Origin: Lunularia cruciata
Lineage: Eukaryota; Streptophyta; Marchantiopsida; Lunulariales; Lunulariaceae
DNA: 64,000 nt
Assembly: GCA_948567375.1 (NCBI GenBank)
Contig: OX419762.1
Span: 9,244,001-9,308,000, forward strand
Direction of reading: 5' to 3'
In this document: in pieces, positions 1,634-61,743 of the stretch
How the letters are laid out: each line of letters starts with the position of its first letter
Numbering within the stretch: position 1 is the first letter of the stretch
Program-made: the position numbers and the translations under genes
The notes under the pieces: generated by a model
The model's input: the letters and a program-made list of their open reading frames with translations, nothing else
Told to the model about the DNA's origin: nothing
Databases searched by the model: none

Positions 1634-4600
1634 AAGCAGGCAACCACAGAGAACACATGAAGGATGGGAAGACCCAGCAAGCCACACAAGGGAGAGCCAA
1701 ATGAGGTAGAATGGGGCTAGGCCCCAATAGTATCGATATGAGATATCTGTCCCACCAAACTTAAGATATCCGAGCTATGCAAGTCATAAGCTCTACAGAT
1801 TATTGGAATATTTGGAGAAACATCACCTAGAGAGATTGCTCTCCTATGGATTGCACCAGCCAATGCTCTTTGTAGAGCAATGTACACACACCGTCTGAAG
1901 TATGCTACAAAGTATGAGAGTGAGAGTGGTACCCTTTGGCATCTAATATGATAAACTCGGTGGATTCCTTGACAAATGTATCAAACACCATGTCCATAGC
2001 TCCATATAACTCCAAGGCTAGAGGAACAAAGAGGTGAGCTCGCTGCATACCCCTATACTTGGAGATCTTGCATGTTGCTGCTCTACTCGCCGCTCATCCA
2101 TGAGGATGAGTAATCACTCCCTCCAAAACTATATCACATGTAGGGTCTATAACCACAACATCCACCACTATCACCTGATCATCTAGGACCAAGTATAAGA
2201 CTGCTTTGATGCATGGCATTTGCAAAGAATATGATTGGCCCCTCCAAGCAAGATATCCACTCTCTCATGCCATAGCAAACACTATATCCATGATGGCATC
2301 ATGGGTAGCTATCCTCTATCTTCCATAAGGACATTATGTCATATGGACCGCTGCTGCATCTACTGTAGAACCACATTCACAAGTGAGTTATGAAGATACA
2401 GACTGATGGACTAAACCTAAGCAAAACCTCATTGTTGTAGAGACAATGGTTGGTGTGAGTTGGAATGCCCTAATCCACATTTGAGCTGGGATTCAAGAGC
2501 ATGCACCCTTGACGGAGCAAGAGCAAAGACATGATCTAGTGGCCCAAGGAATGGATGAGTCAACTAAGAGAGAATGTAGTATATGTTGACATTGTTGCTC
2601 CATCAAGGGAGATTACAAACCTCTGGTCCAATCTGATGGTAGTGAAGAAAAAGGATTGAAGGTCATCCTCTACTTGTGGAGATATACCATTTCTTGTATG
2701 TTGCAATAACACTTGGAGAGAAAAGGGTCCCTCCTCCACCTTGGTCACATAAGTGTCCAAAATTGGCCTATCAATAACCACAAAATGGGAGGAAAGTAGG
2801 GGTGCTAAGAGAGCACAACTACCCAAAAAATGCTATAGGTGTCATCTCCTCCATAGATAATAAGCCTACCCCTCCGCATAAGATTGGTAAAGATGTCTGT
2901 CTACATGCCAAATCCCTTGTGACACACTCAAATATCACTGGTCTAATGATATGACCAAAGATTCCCATAATGCTCATACAAAAGGTCTCAAATATGATAG
3001 GAAAGTCAAGGAAGGGGAAATCATGCATAGGAGGTAAGTCAATCAAAGTGCAATAGTAGAGGAGAGTATACCAAATGCCACTTGCGGATCTCCTATAAGA
3101 GGAAGGTCATCCACATGGAGAATATCCTTTGCAAGGGTAATGTCTAAGAAGCATGTGGAAAAATCCTCAAGTCCTATTGGTACCCCAATAATATGTAGTC
3201 TATTTTTAGATGTGACACACCCTTTGGAAGCTCACAATAGGGATGGATACTTGAAGGGGACCATGCTCTGCACTTTGACACCTTGACTCTCAAGCCTACA
3301 AGATGTAGTTCGATAATCAAGTGATCAAAGGCCTACCTAATATGATCTACAGGGCCCAAAATATTTGTATCATCTCCTAAGGAGTGAAATACATAGCCTG
3401 GCATGGCCAAAGTAGTAGATAAGAGAGCTCTAAAGTGAGCCATGGTAAAGAAAGGTTCCCCTAAAGGATCTCCTTGTTGTTTACTAACAATTGACTTCAA
3501 GATGGTGACTCCCCTTGTAACCACCCATGTTGGCAAAGAAAAGGGAAGTAGGAGAGCCATAGAAAAACTGCACAAAAGGAATGAGACTCACCAAGGATCC
3601 ACCAATCTCCCTAAACTCTCTAAAGATGGATGCCCAAAATATGCAATTAAAAGCGTCTCAACATCCACTTATAGGACAACCCATTTTGGATGGATATTTA
3701 GGAGTGCCTTGATGTCTAGGGAAATAGCCTTGCAACCTCCAAGTGTAGCTACTCCAGACTGATTGGACTAAGGTGCTCCCAAAAGCAAGGTCAATGCTGA
3801 AGGACAATGGTGTGACCAATCAAGTGCAAAAGATCTCTCCATTAGCAATTGGTCTTATACCCCTTGTGCCCTTCTCCATGGCAAGATGTTGACTAGCCTC
3901 TAACACCTGACGAATTGACGTAGGAATGTCTTTGTCACTATTGCTACAACCACTTGAAACAATTGGTAAATCCACTAGAAAGATCTTATGCCATAAAGCA
4001 ATCTCTAAAATGCTTGTATACCATCCTTGACAAGCCTCTTGAGGAGAAGCAAGGAGTAGTGCATAAAGCTTATGCAAAAATGACCTATCAAGACATAAAA
4101 GCTCTTCAGACTGATAATCTAAGACCTCTAATGGTACTCCCTCTCTTGCCATAGGATGCAGTGAGCGTACAGAAGAGATAATCTCATCAATGGGACTAAC
4201 CATAGACAAAAGGTGTAGCACTTGAGCTGCTCTGCTAAGCTATCCTGCTTGACCCAATCTCCTACACCATCATTAGCTAGTGGACTCTATGGTATCATGT
4301 GGCAGAATCTGTCTCCTAAAATGTGCAGCCCTAACCAACTCCTTTTGTAGGGCAGCCCAATCCCCCACTTGAAATCAACAAAATCTAACAGCCACCTCTC
4401 TATGCCCCTCATGTCTCCCTCTAGCATAATGAATGCATCATCAAGAGAGTAAGAGGAATAAAAACCATGCTAACTCGTCCAAGGGATCATGTGCCAAACT
4501 ATCAAATGGTGAGCAAAAAGTCTGTTTAGGCTCATCAAAGAGTATACAAGGTAGTCTATGGAATAGACGTGGACATGGAAAACTAGTCTCAAATAACCCC

Positions 4601-10476: not shown

Positions 10477-13400
10477 CTATCTAAAGTAAGCTACAAAGTA
10501 TGAGAGTGAGAGTGGTGCCCCCTGACGCCTAACATGATAAGCTCTCGCGCACTCCCTGACAAATGTATCAAATGCCGTGTCCATCGCTCCATATAACTCC
10601 AAGGCTAGAGGAACAAAGAGGTGACCTCGCTGCATGCCCCTATACTTGGAGACCTTACGACCTGCTGCTGCACTCGCCGCCCATCCAAGGGGATGGGTAA
10701 TCACTCCCTCTGAAACTGTATCCCGCGTAGGGTGCGTGACCACGACATCCGCTACGGTCACCTGATCATCTCGGACCAAGTATAAGTCTGCCCTGACACG
10801 TGTCGTCTGCAACGCATACGAACCTCCAAGCTAAGTATCCACTCTCTCGTGCCATACCAAACAATATGTCTCTAATGGCATCATGTGTAGCTATCCTCTG
10901 TCCTCAAAAAGGACACAGTGTCATGTGGACCGCCACTGCATCTAGTGCGGAACCACACTCACAAGTGAGTAGTGAAGATGCAGATGGGTGGACCAAGCCT
11001 AGGCGAAACCTCATCGCTGTAGAGAAAGTAGCCGGTGTGAGTCGGAAAGCCCTAATGCATGGTCGAGCTAGGATCCACGAGCCTGCACCCTTGCCGGAGC
11101 AAGAGCGTAGACGTACTCTAGTAGCCTGAGGAATGGACGAGTCAACTAAGAGAGATTGTAGCGTATGCTCACATTGTCGCTCCATCAAGAAAGACTGTAG
11201 GCCTCTAGTCCAATCTGACGATAGTGAAGCAAACGATGGAAAACCCTCTCGTGCTCGTGTGGATAGACTATCTCTCGTCTGCCGCAATAACACCTAGAGA
11301 GAAAAGGGTCCTCCCTCCACCTCTGTCACATACGTTTCCAAAACCGGCCTATCAACAACCACAAAACGAGAGGCAAGTAGGGGTGCCGAGAGAGCCCAAC
11401 TACCCAAAAACACTATAGGTGCCATCTCCTCCATAGAAAGCAAGCCAACCCCACCACATGAGATTGGTAGAGCCGTCTGTCTACGTGCCAAATCCCCTGT
11501 CACACACTCAAAAGTCCCTGGTCCAACAATATCACCAAAGACTCCCATAATCCTCCTATCAAATGCTCTCAGACGTGATAGGAAGGACGGTGAGGGGGGA
11601 ATTGTATGGATGAGGTAGGATGGTCGACGAGCCATACGTGAAGAGAGTATACCAAATGCCACATGCGGATCTCCTAGTAATGGAAGGTCATCACATGGAG
11701 AACATCGTCTGCAAGGGCAATGTCTAAGAAGCGTGTGACGAAATCCTCCGATCCTACTGGCACTCCAAGAACACAAAGTCCATCTGTGGATGTGATACAC
11801 CCCTCTGGAAGCTCAAGGTGGGGAGGGATACCTAAAGGGGACCATGCCCTACACTTTGACACCTTGACTCTCAAGCCTACTAGATGTAGCTCGGTAGTCA
11901 AGTAGTCAAAGGCCTGTCTAATCTGATCTATAGGGCCTACAATGTGTGTATCATCTGCCAAGGAGGGAAATACACAACCTGGCATGGCCAAAGTAGTAGA
12001 TAGGAGAGCTCTAAAGTGAGCCATGGCAAATAAGGGCCCTCCCAAAGGATCTCCCTGTCGTGTACCAACAGCTGACTCCAAGACGGTGACTCCCTCTTGT
12101 GAACCACCATGCTGGTAGTAAAGGGAAGCAGGAGAGCCATAAAAAGACCGCACAAAAGGAATGAGACTCGCCAAGGATCCACCAGCCTCCCTAAGCTCAC
12201 TAAAGACGGATGCACGTGAGACGCTATTAAAAGCGTTCTCAATATCCACCTGTAGGACAATCCACTCCGGATAGATATCTAGGAGTGCTCTAATGCCTAG
12301 AGATATAGCCTCACATCCTCCAGGTGTAGCTACTCCAAACTGATGTGGATTAAGGTGCTATCGAAAGTGAGAACGATGCTGAAGGACAATGGTACGACTG
12401 ACCAAATGCAAGAAGATCTCTCCAATAGCAATCGGTCTAATGCCTCCCGTGTCCTTCTCAATTGCAAGAAGTCAACTAGCACCTAAGACCCGACTAACAA
12501 ATATAGGAATGTCTCCTCTCGCTACTGCTGCAGCCACCTGAAACAACTCGGTAAAACCACTAGAAGGATCATCTGCCTGGAAGCAATCTCTAAGGTGCTC
12601 ATAAACCATCCCTGACAATCCTCCTGAGGAAAGGCGAGGGGTAGTGCACAATGCTTGTGCAAATAGCGACCTATCAAGACATAAAGACTGCTCAGGCTGA
12701 TAATCTAAGACCTCTAGTGGTAGTCCCTCTACTGCTAGAAGATGCAATGAGCGTAGGGAAGAAATGGTCTCATCAGTAGGACTCACTATAGACAAAGGGT
12801 GTAGCGCTCGTGTTGCTCTACTAAACTCCCTCGCCTGACCCAATGTCCTACATCGTCGTAATCGAGTGGAATCTATGGTATCCTGTGGCGATGCCTGTCT
12901 CCTAAGTCGTGTAGCCCTAACAGACTCTTCCTGAAGCGCTGCCCAATCCCCCGCTCGGAATCGATGAAATCTAGCCGCCACCTCTCTATGCCCCGCGCGT
13001 CCCCTTCTAGCATAACGAAGACACCATCGAGGGAGTAGGAGGAATAGGAACCACGCTAACTCGTCTAAGGGATCACGTGCCAAACGATCCAGTGGTAGGC
13101 AAAAATCCTGTCTAGCCTCATCATGGAGTGTGCGGGGCAGTCTATGGAATAGACGTGGACATGGAAAACTAGCTCAAATAACCCCAAAATGCAACCCGCA
13201 TGAGAAACTAACCACTCCCACGACTCGATCGGTATCCTTGGAGCGATCAACGAAGGTATAGAAGAAGCGTGCGTAATCCCGAGTGTCACTGCAATTGATG
13301 TGGTCGCTCGTCTCAAGTGAGCATCCCAAGTGGTCAAATTATAGTCCTTGTGCATCCTTCCCACATGGGTCTTTACCCCTTGCGAGGTAAAGTGTCAGTA

Positions 13401-20009: not shown

Positions 20010-20744
<735 letters not shown>

Positions 20745-37607: not shown

Positions 37608-38945
37608 TCACAACAATATGGAATTGATTCTGATGAGACTTTCAGCCCTATTGCCAAGATGTCATCAAGTTGTGCTCTCTCAACATTGGCTTCTTTCAAT
37701 AACTGGAAGCTCTATCAGATGGACTTCAACAATGATTTCCTCAATGGAGATTTGGAGGAGCTATCCATGATCCAACCACTTGGATATGAAGATTCAAGAT
37801 ATCCAAAAAAAATATCTTATTAAAAAAGTCTCTTCATGGACTTCAAGAAGCTCAACGAGCTTGGAATGCCAAGATAGATTTCTTTCTTTTATCCATTGGA
37901 ATTCAAGTTTACAGGTCAGATTCTTCATTCCACAAACTACAAGTTGGTGACATATGGTTTTGTTGATCAGCTATGTTGATGACCTGACCATCACTACTAG
38001 ATGTGAAGATCTCATCCGGCAAGTACAAGATCAGTTGAAGGGACAGTTTGACATGAAAGACTTGGGAGAACTCAAATATTTCTTGGGAATTGAGTTTATT
38101 CAAGATGGCAATAACCTTTGGCTATTGCATTGGCAATATTCCTCAACATGTTGTAGAAGTTAAGTATGATGGCTTGTAAGCCTATTTCTACTCCTCTTCC
38201 AACTTCTGTTAATTTAAATGCAAAATATGGTTAGTTGTTGGCTGGTCCAAATATGTACATACAGATCACTGGAAGTCTGATTTATTTGACTCTTACTAGA
38301 CCAGATAAGTTAAGTTGTTGGTCTAGGGAGTCAATTTGTGCAAGCACCAAGGAAGCCATATCTTGATATAGTTCAAAGGATTTTACATGATGTGAAGTTT
38401 ACCATCCAATTTGGTCTTCACCATTCAGCTGATGGTTACCCATTGTACAAGGTTTTACTGATGTGGACTGTGCAGTAAGTGCTCAAGATCAAAGATCAAC
38501 ATCAGGTTATATTTTCAACCTTGGAAATTTTGCAATTAGTTGGTCATCAAAGAAGCAAGCTACTGTTGCTTTCTCATCAACAGAAGTGGCATATAGGGGT
38601 GTCACTAACGCTACATATGAGTATCTTTGGCTTCACACCTTAATAGAAGATATGGGATATATATTTCATGATCCTATAATCTTATACACAAATAACATCA
38701 GCAGTATTAAACTTACTAATAATCCAGTATTTCATGCAAGGACCAAACATATAGAGATCCATCAGAGAAAGGTATTGGCTGGAGAAATAAATCTGTTGTA
38801 TATTCTACAAATGAGCAAGTCGCTGATATTTTCACCAAAGCTTTACCTAGAGATAAATTTGAACATTTGAGATCTTATCTAGGAGTCAAAGATATTGAGA
38901 GTGTTGATGAAATATCACAAGTTAATACTCCTAGTGAACGCAGGA
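37605..38945 (+). pseudogene. Ty1/Copia retrotransposon, 3' part (RT core and RNase H)
   Basis: Continues the Copia protein broken at 24287: FSQQYGIDSDETFSPIAKM, then WKLYQMDFNNDFLNGDLEE (37605-37770), then the catalytic SYVDDLTITTR (37969-38000) and FDMKDLGELKYFLGIEF (38047-38097). RNase H: DQRSTSGYIFNLGNFAISWS, KKQATVAFSSTEVAY, HARTKHIEIH (38487-38770). The C-terminal signature ADIFTKALPRDKFEHLR is in a second frame at about 38823-38875. Frameshifts and stops break it. Confidence 0.9.
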
Positions 38946-59580: not shown

Positions 59581-61743
59581 ATGGAGGTGGCCATGGATAT
59601 GCGTAGCATGCAGATGTTCGACTCTGACATGTTTCAGCTCGAGGATTACATGTTCAACGAGCCCACTGCTAGTGTTGCGTACTACGGAGGAGGTCACCAA
59701 GATAATAGCGTCGGATCCTGGCAAATTAAGGACGAAAGGGCCCAGGGACAGGTCTCGATATTTGGAAATTGCTCACCGACCCTGAGCCGATCCAGCTCTC
59801 TCGTGAGCACCGGCAGCGACTCGTCGCTGTCGTATGACAACTGCAATCCTCCCCAACGCGGCGGAGGTGGTGGATTTACCGAACAGTTCAAGGCCGTTGC
59901 CGCTAGCCTTTGCTCCCCTCTCTCCGAACTGCAGCGAGCCCGAAGCTGCACGTCATCTTTGCGAAGTTTTGAATCAGACGACTTGGATGATCCCTCCGGA
60001 TGTTTCTCTCAAACCGACATGGTTGTGAGCAGCGATCGTGATACCTCCGTCACTAGTCAGGAGCATTTCCCCATGAATGCCGATTTGAGTTCTCTGATGG
60101 AGTCGATGCTCGGCAACGGCTCAGATATTGTGGGTCTTTCTGTGGACGACGACTTTGCTGAATGGAACCCTTCATCTCGTCAGTGTCTCCCCTCTCACGA
60201 AGTCGATGTCTATTCCAGTCCAATAAACGTCTTGGACTTTCCAGATTCAACAGCTTGTGCCAGTCCTCGTGCAGACACTGGCCAATACTTGGATTCAAAT
60301 TCTCCTCAACTGCTGCAACAACAACAACAACAGCAGCAGCAGCAAGAGGAGGAGGAGGAAGTTGTACCGGAGGTCCCTCACTCATCAGCGTTAAGCTTCT
60401 CTAACATTGGGGTTGGAAATCAGCGACTAGGCCAAAGCCAAGGCCACTGGATGAGAGGAGACTCCGGAGGAAACCATGACTTTTTCTACCAGCATTTATC
60501 TTCGGAAATCTCGTTTCAAAATTGCCACATCGTGCACCCGTCCGGGTTCCAACCTCATATAGTGCCTCAGCTGGGAATCAAGTCTGAAGAAGACTTCAAC
60601 GGTATACGGTTGGTTCACTTGCTGCTTGCCGGGGCGGAGGCAGTCGCCGGCATGAATATCGATCTTGCCACTGTGATATTGGTTCGGCTCAAGGAGCTGG
60701 TGTCAAGGAGTGGCAGCACGATGCAAAGATTGGCGGCCTATTTTTGCGAGGGACTCCAGTACAGAATTGAAGGAGTGAGGGGTCCCGATAGGATGAGCGA
60801 GTCTCAGAACGACTCGCTCAGTGCTTTCCAGGTTCTGCACGAAGTTTCCCCGTACATCAAATTCGGACATTTTACGGCCAATCAGGCTATTCTGGAAGCA
60901 TTTGAAGGAGAGAGGCGAGTGCACATCATTGACTACGATATTCTTGAGGGCATCCAATGGCCTTCGTTGATGCAAGCTCTTGCTTGCAGAACCGGAGGGC
61001 CTCCTCACCTTCGAGTCACGGCTCTTTGTCGACCTCATGTCAAGAGGGCTTTGGCCATGACTCAAGAAACGGGGAAGAGGCTCACGGAGTTCGCAGCCAC
61101 TTTCAATATTCCCTTTTCTTTCCATCAAGTTAGAATCGACAACGAAGATGAGTTGCGACCCACGCTGCTCAAGCAGGTAAAAGGTGAATGTCTGGCCGTC
61201 AATTGCATGGTACACCTACCTCACATGCCTCATAGATCTAAGAAGGCCGTGACCTCATTCATGAGAGCAGTGCACAGACTATCGCCAAAAGTACTCGCTC
61301 TCGTTGAAGAGGAGCTAAGCTGCAGCTCCTCTTCGTTTGTCGGCCATTTCTTCGAGGCCCTACATCACTATTCGGCGATTTTCGATTCGCTGGAGGCTAG
61401 TCTGTCTGCTGAGAGCAAAGGTCGCCAGTTAGTGGAGCGGATCTTCCTCGCTCCGAGAATCACCAGTCTGATGACATCCTGTAATACTGACAGTCCTGGC
61501 GCCTCGCCTGGCTCCAACGGGATGTGTGAAAACGATGGAGTCCACTGGCACTCGCTCGCACAAACAGAGGGATTTCATCCAGTTCCTTTGAGTGTCTACA
61601 ATCTGTGTCAAGCAAAGCTGTTGCTGGGATTGTTCAGTGATGGATACAAAGTGGAAGAAGAACAAAATCGTCTACTTCTTGGCTGGCGTTCCAAAATCTT
61701 GCTGGGAGCTTCTATTTGGCAATGTACTCGATATGAGACATAA
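59581..61743 (+). CDS. NSP2: NSP2-like GRAS-domain transcription factor (720 aa)
   Basis: Single uninterrupted exon. The start is set at the ATG at 59581: an in-frame TGA lies at 59557 and no earlier in-frame ATG exists. Residues 1-340 are a low-complexity, Ser-rich, acidic N-terminus with Q10 and E5 runs at 246-260. The GRAS domain spans about 341-720: LHRI starts GIRLVHLLLAGAEAVAG (341), a VHIID motif stands exactly at 447-451 followed by YDILEGIQWPSLMQAL, LRVTAL and the second leucine-rich stretch come next, a PFYRE-type region includes FVGHFFEALHHYSAIFDSLE (586-605), and SAW ends GWRSKILLGASIW (701-713). YIKFGHFTANQAILEA, VHIIDYDILEG and FHQVRIDNEDELRP mark NSP2 rather than DELLA, SCR or HAM. 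NSP2 works in the nucleus with NSP1, controlling strigolactone-synthesis genes and symbiotic responses. The N-terminus is long for the family. Subfamily assignment is from memory of motifs. Confidence 0.9.
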   Translation: MEVAMDMRSMQMFDSDMFQLEDYMFNEPTASVAYYGGGHQDNSVGSWQIKDERAQGQVSIFGNCSPTLSRSSSLVSTGSDSSLSYDNCNPPQRGGGGGFTEQFKAVAASLCSPLSELQRARSCTSSLRSFESDDLDDPSGCFSQTDMVVSSDRDTSVTSQEHFPMNADLSSLMESMLGNGSDIVGLSVDDDFAEWNPSSRQCLPSHEVDVYSSPINVLDFPDSTACASPRADTGQYLDSNSPQLLQQQQQQQQQQEEEEEVVPEVPHSSALSFSNIGVGNQRLGQSQGHWMRGDSGGNHDFFYQHLSSEISFQNCHIVHPSGFQPHIVPQLGIKSEEDFNGIRLVHLLLAGAEAVAGMNIDLATVILVRLKELVSRSGSTMQRLAAYFCEGLQYRIEGVRGPDRMSESQNDSLSAFQVLHEVSPYIKFGHFTANQAILEAFEGERRVHIIDYDILEGIQWPSLMQALACRTGGPPHLRVTALCRPHVKRALAMTQETGKRLTEFAATFNIPFSFHQVRIDNEDELRPTLLKQVKGECLAVNCMVHLPHMPHRSKKAVTSFMRAVHRLSPKVLALVEEELSCSSSSFVGHFFEALHHYSAIFDSLEASLSAESKGRQLVERIFLAPRITSLMTSCNTDSPGASPGSNGMCENDGVHWHSLAQTEGFHPVPLSVYNLCQAKLLLGLFSDGYKVEEEQNRLLLGWRSKILLGASIWQCTRYET
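60316..60360 (+). repeat. CAA/CAG and GAG triplet run inside NSP2
   Basis: Ten glutamine codons followed by five glutamate codons (residues 246-260), in the disordered N-terminal part. Such runs vary in length between alleles and are outside the GRAS domain. Confidence 0.95.
60671..60691 (+). promoter_or_regulatory. Candidate miR171-family target site in the NSP2 coding sequence
   Basis: The segment CTGTGATATTGGTTCGGCTC plus the next A lies over codons for residues about 364-371 (VILVRLK). By my alignment the site starting at GATATTGG (60675) matches the complement of canonical plant miR171 at 17 of 21 positions. In the register used by the NSP2-targeting miR171h of Medicago it also matches at about 17 of 21. 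Known NSP2 and HAM genes are cut by miR171 at this same protein position. The microRNA sequences are recalled, not searched. Confidence 0.65.

Follow-up and report, generated by a model that had tools for sequence, protein, structure and literature searches.

NSP2 is a GRAS protein that is reported to favour colonisation by mycorrhizal fungi and the synthesis of strigolactones in both Medicago and barley; in Medicago it is held in check by miR171h. A review citing a 2012 paper describes this miR171h–NSP2 module as kept in mycorrhizal angiosperms only (PMC8910752). In tomato, PMC4814767 assigns an NSP2 gene as target to ordinary-centre miR171 and miR171g, with degradome support. A further described system is the miR171–HAM (SCL6/LOM) module of land plants, which resembles the case reported here in its ordinary miR171 with a CGC centre and in a site within the GRAS domain. 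A liverwort GRAS mRNA has also been named as a miR171 target: reviews list MpGRAS10/MpSCL in Marchantia polymorpha (PMC10721683), and miR171 is reported to guide cleavage of a GRAS mRNA in the same species (PMC9291395). In PMC7975763, HAM is given as absent from M. polymorpha and NSP2 as absent from all bryophytes sampled there, contrary to the gene described below; PMC6232258 records NSP2 in liverworts and Takakia.

The window, that is, the whole stretch of 64,000 nucleotides analysed here, corresponds to C12:9244001-9308000 in its own 566-Mb assembly. It contains a GRAS gene with the following coordinates:

59581-61743, plus strand: NSP2 orthologue, an intronless open reading frame of 720 amino acids, identified by Pfam, the PDB, comparison with MtNSP2 and a tree
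60610-61722, plus strand: GRAS domain (Pfam GRAS), residues 344-714, with coordinates derived from the residue numbers

The 720-residue product contains a full GRAS domain (368 bits with Pfam), and its best match in the PDB is NSP2 (9x2r_B, 373.7 bits), the second being DELLA1 (234). When MtNSP2 was compared with the GRAS genes of this assembly, the same gene came out on top with 361 bits (runner-up, 228), and in a tree of 21 rows it formed one clade with MtNSP2 with a support of 100/100; the HAM row of that tree has a long branch, and its placement is uninformative. By its structural match and its position in the tree, the gene is a member of the NSP2 subfamily, which bears out the identity proposed in the preliminary description of this DNA. 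That description had also taken the intronless structure as a pointer to an old circuit. In this assembly a single uninterrupted frame spanning nearly all of the domain is the rule, seen in 17 of the 18 GRAS matches, and we give this structure no weight. One locus (L034), whose longest open frame has no GRAS domain, played no part in the site comparisons, the tree or the codon usage, and 17 genes are counted in what follows. Two loci were compared as NSP1 candidates; one was nearest to SHORT-ROOT (L032) and the other to 5hyz, a rice GRAS protein (L033), and neither of the two was recognised as NSP1.

Within the GRAS domain of this gene, and elsewhere on the same contig, we located the presumed partners of a miR171 interaction:

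60672-60692, plus strand: predicted miR171-family recognition site, TGTGATATTGGTTCGGCTCAA, with 19 of 21 bases exact to the genome's own miR171-A
60682-60684, plus strand: Val codon GTT, which holds both departures from full pairing with miR171-A
C12:8583231-8583757: tandem pair of MIR171 hairpins (L013, L014, L069, L070) separated by 432 bases, recognised by Rfam MIR171_1

The string GATATTGGTTCGGCTCAA lies at 60675-60692 and, in the UUGAGCC register of miR171, the 21-nucleotide site covers 60672-60692. It is in frame, with the codons ACT GTG ATA TTG GTT CGG CTC AAG GAG encoding T V I L V R L K E. A miR171 core had been reported at 60671-60691 with a predicted cut at 60681/60682; the core is indeed there, but the span was set one base too far to the left, and the UUGAGCC register likewise moves the predicted cut by one base, to 60682/60683.

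Across the assembly, GAGCCGNNNCAATATC has eight exact occurrences; two of these are the hairpins, which score 58.8 and 48.6 bits, above the Rfam MIR171_1 gathering score of 48. A whole-assembly search with Rfam MIR171_1 gave these two tandem loci alone among the best 46 of 157,245 candidates, which makes two MIR171 genes a lower bound; both loci give a match below the cut-off on the opposite strand too. Each hairpin carries the mature arm on its 3' side, with 18 of 21 bases paired on folding. By homology, the mature miRNAs are UUGAGCCGCGCCAAUAUCACA (miR171-A) and UUGAGCCGCUCCAAUAUCACA (miR171-B); position 10 is G in the first and U in the second, and their centres are CGC and CUC. The contig that carries the pair also carries NSP2, 721 kb away, and we read nothing into this distance.

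Between miR171-A and the NSP2 site, 19 of 21 positions pair; position 9 is a C:U mismatch, and position 10 is G:U. Position 9 is unpaired for miR171-A and miR171-B alike, and miR171-B is mismatched at position 10 as well. Full pairing at positions 9-11, a criterion for slicing, is thus absent, and nowhere does a mismatch harm a slicing site more than at its centre. With a penalty of 1 for a mismatch and 0.5 for G:U, doubled at positions 2-13, NSP2 scores 3.0 with miR171-A and 4.0 with miR171-B; a penalty of 3.0 is within commonly used prediction cut-offs. NSP2 is the best of the 17 GRAS genes for miR171-A; a second gene (L023) follows with a penalty of 4.5, and the remaining 15 score at least 10.0. 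No well-paired target for miR171-B was found among the 17. The energy of the duplex between NSP2 and miR171-A is 82% of that of a perfect one, and no better register was found with the start of the miRNA shifted from -4 to +3. The earlier proposal would have fallen had the species no miR171 with acceptable pairing; at the level of the genome this is excluded, as miR171-A is encoded and pairs at a penalty of 3.0.

These values are relevant to the possibility that the plant's own miR171 slices NSP2 efficiently in the style of flowering plants, despite the weak centre. The penalty inside common cut-offs would allow it, MIR171 has been retained without a recognised HAM gene (see below), and the tomato data, in which NSP2 is assigned to ordinary-centre miR171s, include degradome support (PMC4814767). 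The tomato case differs in that it comes from an angiosperm and its pairs have penalties of 1.5 and 2, on a different scale from ours; moreover, the mismatch at position 9 and the G:U at position 10 adjoin the scissile bond of the site studied here. We consider efficient slicing unlikely.

We asked how much of the match to miR171 follows from the protein. The NSP2 protein alone leads one to expect a mean of 13.8 of 21 matches to miR171-A. In 200,000 synonymous recodings drawn with codon frequencies from the other GRAS genes, at least 19 exact matches were reached in 0.11% of the draws, and with NSP2's own codon usage in 0.05%. A penalty of 3.0 or less was reached by 0.29% of the synonymous NSP2 recodings (P 0.0029). 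The codon usage left out NSP2 in the match-count test, and both NSP2 and L023 in the penalty test. When the full set of 17 GRAS genes was recoded 60 times, one round produced a site at 3.0 or less, and two produced one at 4.0 or less. The P values for codon bias (0.0005-0.003) are modest and concern one gene only. They agree with the earlier claim that synonymous changes tolerated by the protein could destroy the site, in that NSP2's choices are unusual for its protein. The pattern TTGAGCCGNNNCAATATCAC was also rare in the 566 Mb, where it occurs exactly in three places, the two MIR171 hairpins and NSP2, against 0.07 expected in random sequence. With one mismatch there were three further places against 3.4 expected, and the signal is therefore confined to the exact class. 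With up to two mismatches the pattern occurs in 46 places, compared with 9 for the reversed control, and six of the 46 are a single repeat, TTGAGCCGACTTCATATCAC. Judged by its codons and its rarity, the site in NSP2 is real and above chance.

The Val codon at 60682-60684 accounts for both departures from full pairing. Pairing fully with miR171-A would require GCG (Ala) here; were Val kept as GTG, one G:U would be left and the penalty would fall to 1.0. GTG is also the commonest Val codon of the plant's GRAS genes (0.37), and the NSP2 site uses GTT. Because GTG would mend position 9 with the protein unchanged, that position shows no sign of having been selected for slicing by today's miR171-A. 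The use of GTT therefore means that miR171-A is not selecting there, or that partial pairing is kept, or that the codon is the mark of an older miRNA with an AA centre. The codon likewise lends itself to a more sceptical reading, in which the VIL.RL helix of GRAS proteins limits the codons and a near-site persists as a relic or coincidence without miR171 regulation. On that reading, a synonymous codon other than the best-pairing one would cause no surprise, nor would the matches expected from the protein alone or the recodings of the 17 genes that came as low as NSP2. The choices of NSP2 given its protein (P 0.0005-0.003) argue against it, as do the same GTG ATA TTG codons in L023, which have a P of 0.003 of their own, and the match to the synonymous codons deduced for Medicago (1.4e-4; see below). 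We regard a relic or coincidence as doubtful, though it deserves serious weight.

The comparison with Medicago uses the miR171h sequence given in PMC8910752, the complement of which is GAGTGATATTGATTCGGCTCG. Read in frame, this complement encodes VILIRL, identical to the PDB protein at that place. The NSP2 site and this implied Medicago site, whose DNA is inferred from the miRNA, have the same base at 17 of 18 positions, including every one of the six third positions of codons. Agreement with the implied synonymous choices has a P of 1.4e-4 under codon usage, for one inferred site. The conservation named in the preliminary description has this one Medicago site as its basis. The two systems are alike in gene family, in the VIL(V/I)RL stretch and in these 17 of 18 bases. 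They differ in that the searches here gave no dedicated miR171h with either of the centres AAU and AAC and in that the plant's own miR171 is mismatched at position 9. These comparisons support an old, common miR171-family recognition site in NSP2. Since the site matches both the plant's own miR171 and the implied Medicago site, shared ancestry is its likeliest source. A great age of the miR171–NSP2 circuit is plausible, and the control circuit of flowering plants may be far older than them.

The preliminary description had invoked a miR171 variant that tunes NSP2, and for this plant the claim is not supported: the only two MIR171 hairpins found have the centres CGC and CUC. Among the 46 near-matches of TTGAGCCGNNNCAATATCAC, an AAC centre occurs in three (NSP2, L040 and L052) and AAT in none. 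We folded 30 of the 46, the remaining 16 all having other centres than AAC or AAT, together with three extra matches of the shorter pattern GAGCCGNNNCAATATC. The closest miR171h-like candidate, L040 (C10:59345262-59345281, TTGAGCCGAACCAAGATCAC), is one base short of a perfect partner to the core of the NSP2 site, but at most 14 of its 21 mature-arm bases are paired, against 18 in the MIR171 hairpins, and it has no Rfam match. L052 (C6:12588294) was rejected on the same grounds, with at most 6 of 21 mature-arm bases paired against 18 in true hairpins and no Rfam match. Leaving the MIR171 pair aside, good pairing among the folded loci was confined to L043 (19 of 21); its fold is weak at -19.8 kcal/mol, and it has two mismatches in fixed bases. 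Rfam gave no match on 11 near-match loci. The assembly search with up to two mismatches, the folding and the best 46 Rfam candidates thus yielded no MIR171 hairpin whose centre is AAC or AAU.

Slicing of NSP2 by a dedicated miR171 variant is therefore not supported. A dedicated AAC- or AAU-centre miRNA might have been missed, or might have been ancestral and lost, the third-position T of the Val codon being what it left behind. This T is common to GTT and to the ATT that miR171h implies for Medicago, and Mt-miR171h would pair with the NSP2 site save for one central G:U. The chance of a common T is about 0.27, however, the AAC-centre loci do not fold as MIR171, no AAT occurs among the 46 and the best 46 Rfam MIR171_1 candidates yield the two tandem loci only, and we judge such a miRNA very unlikely.

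The second GRAS gene with a related site is not an NSP2:

C12:26985609-26986706: L023, a non-NSP2 GRAS gene with GTGATATTGGTGCGTCTC at the homologous place

Its top PDB match is SCARECROW (261.7 bits, against 192.6 for NSP2) and it was unplaced in the tree, and we rejected it as a second NSP2. With miR171-A it has a mismatch at position 6 and a G:U at position 10, which gives its penalty of 4.5, and its codons at the site are GTG ATA TTG GTG. That L023 and NSP2 share GTG ATA TTG could mean that the site predates the subfamilies, or that selection acted on both in parallel. L023 is a candidate for the liverwort 'SCL' targeted by miR171. MpGRAS10 may in turn belong with NSP2, with genes of the L023 type or with HAM; the Marchantia case is alike in that a liverwort GRAS mRNA is the reported miR171 target. 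If MpGRAS10 is NSP2, the present finding is largely known already under another name. Among the literature matches listed, we recognised no miR171 site in a liverwort NSP2.

The gene in which a miR171 site would usually be sought is HAM. GGQW is a hallmark motif of HAM proteins. It is absent from the motif stretches of 15 of the 18 GRAS loci (L024, L025 and L034 gave no stretch). A query with an Arabidopsis SCL6-type domain singled out no distinct locus, the best reaching 111 bits and 32% identity with others close behind. Neither this query nor the two-mismatch pattern revealed a HAM gene with an intron in the site, and no HAM site was found in a GRAS gene, the GRAS sites among the 46 near-matches being those of NSP2 and L023 only. 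The published HAM site GATATTGGCGCGGCTCAATCA has GCG where NSP2 here has GTT (Val). A HAM orthologue, the usual target of miR171, was thus not recognised in the assembly although MIR171 persists. An assembly of this size with 18 GRAS matches, an NSP2 and no recognised HAM would suit a complex thalloid liverwort.

Taken together, the data make miR171 regulation of NSP2 in this plant plausible, and any such regulation would probably be weaker than that by miR171h or different in kind. The explanation we favour, to which we give about an even chance, is an old coding site in NSP2 that is bound by ordinary miR171 and moderately lowers output, as opposed to slicing of the miR171h type. The site would be an old miR171-family element in the part of the GRAS domain that bears the miR171h site in Medicago. 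Its partner would be the ordinary miR171-A, presumably expressed from the tandem MIR171 pair. The predicted duplex consists of an unbroken 5' block of 8 bp and a 3' block of 11 bp around the weak spot at positions 9-10. Binding of this miRNA to NSP2 mRNA would leave NSP2 output moderately lower, perhaps by slow slicing or translational repression, unlike the slicing reported for Medicago miR171h. A role in the control of mycorrhiza or strigolactone may follow. If the site works in a bryophyte, the miR171–NSP2 link would be moved back towards early land plants, and this would help explain the job of miR171 in a plant without a recognisable HAM.

A broader scenario, which we offer as a speculation and think rather improbable, is that in a HAM-less liverwort lineage NSP2, together with its paralogue L023, retains miR171. 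The link would then be older than the split between bryophytes and vascular plants, angiosperm miR171h would be a later miRNA fit to the Val/Ile codon of NSP2, and the central mismatch would reflect an ancestral, non-slicing mode that sets dose.

Elsewhere in the assembly, searches identified a CYCLOPS-like exon (C1:39917733-39917864, 66% over 44 amino acids) and CCaMK-like exons (C8:20601920-20603106; 66%, 59% and 40%). Their presence suggests that the common symbiosis pathway is kept and makes a mycorrhizal host plausible. In the remainder of the window, open frames judged by eye to be retroelement-like lie at 10904-13173 (minus strand), 3820-4239 (minus strand) and 38433-38870 (plus strand); they comprise a reverse-transcriptase-like stretch, another, partial copy of it and a stretch resembling a Copia-type RNase H. 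The window also holds an uninterrupted, perfect (TG)66 repeat at 20011-20143.
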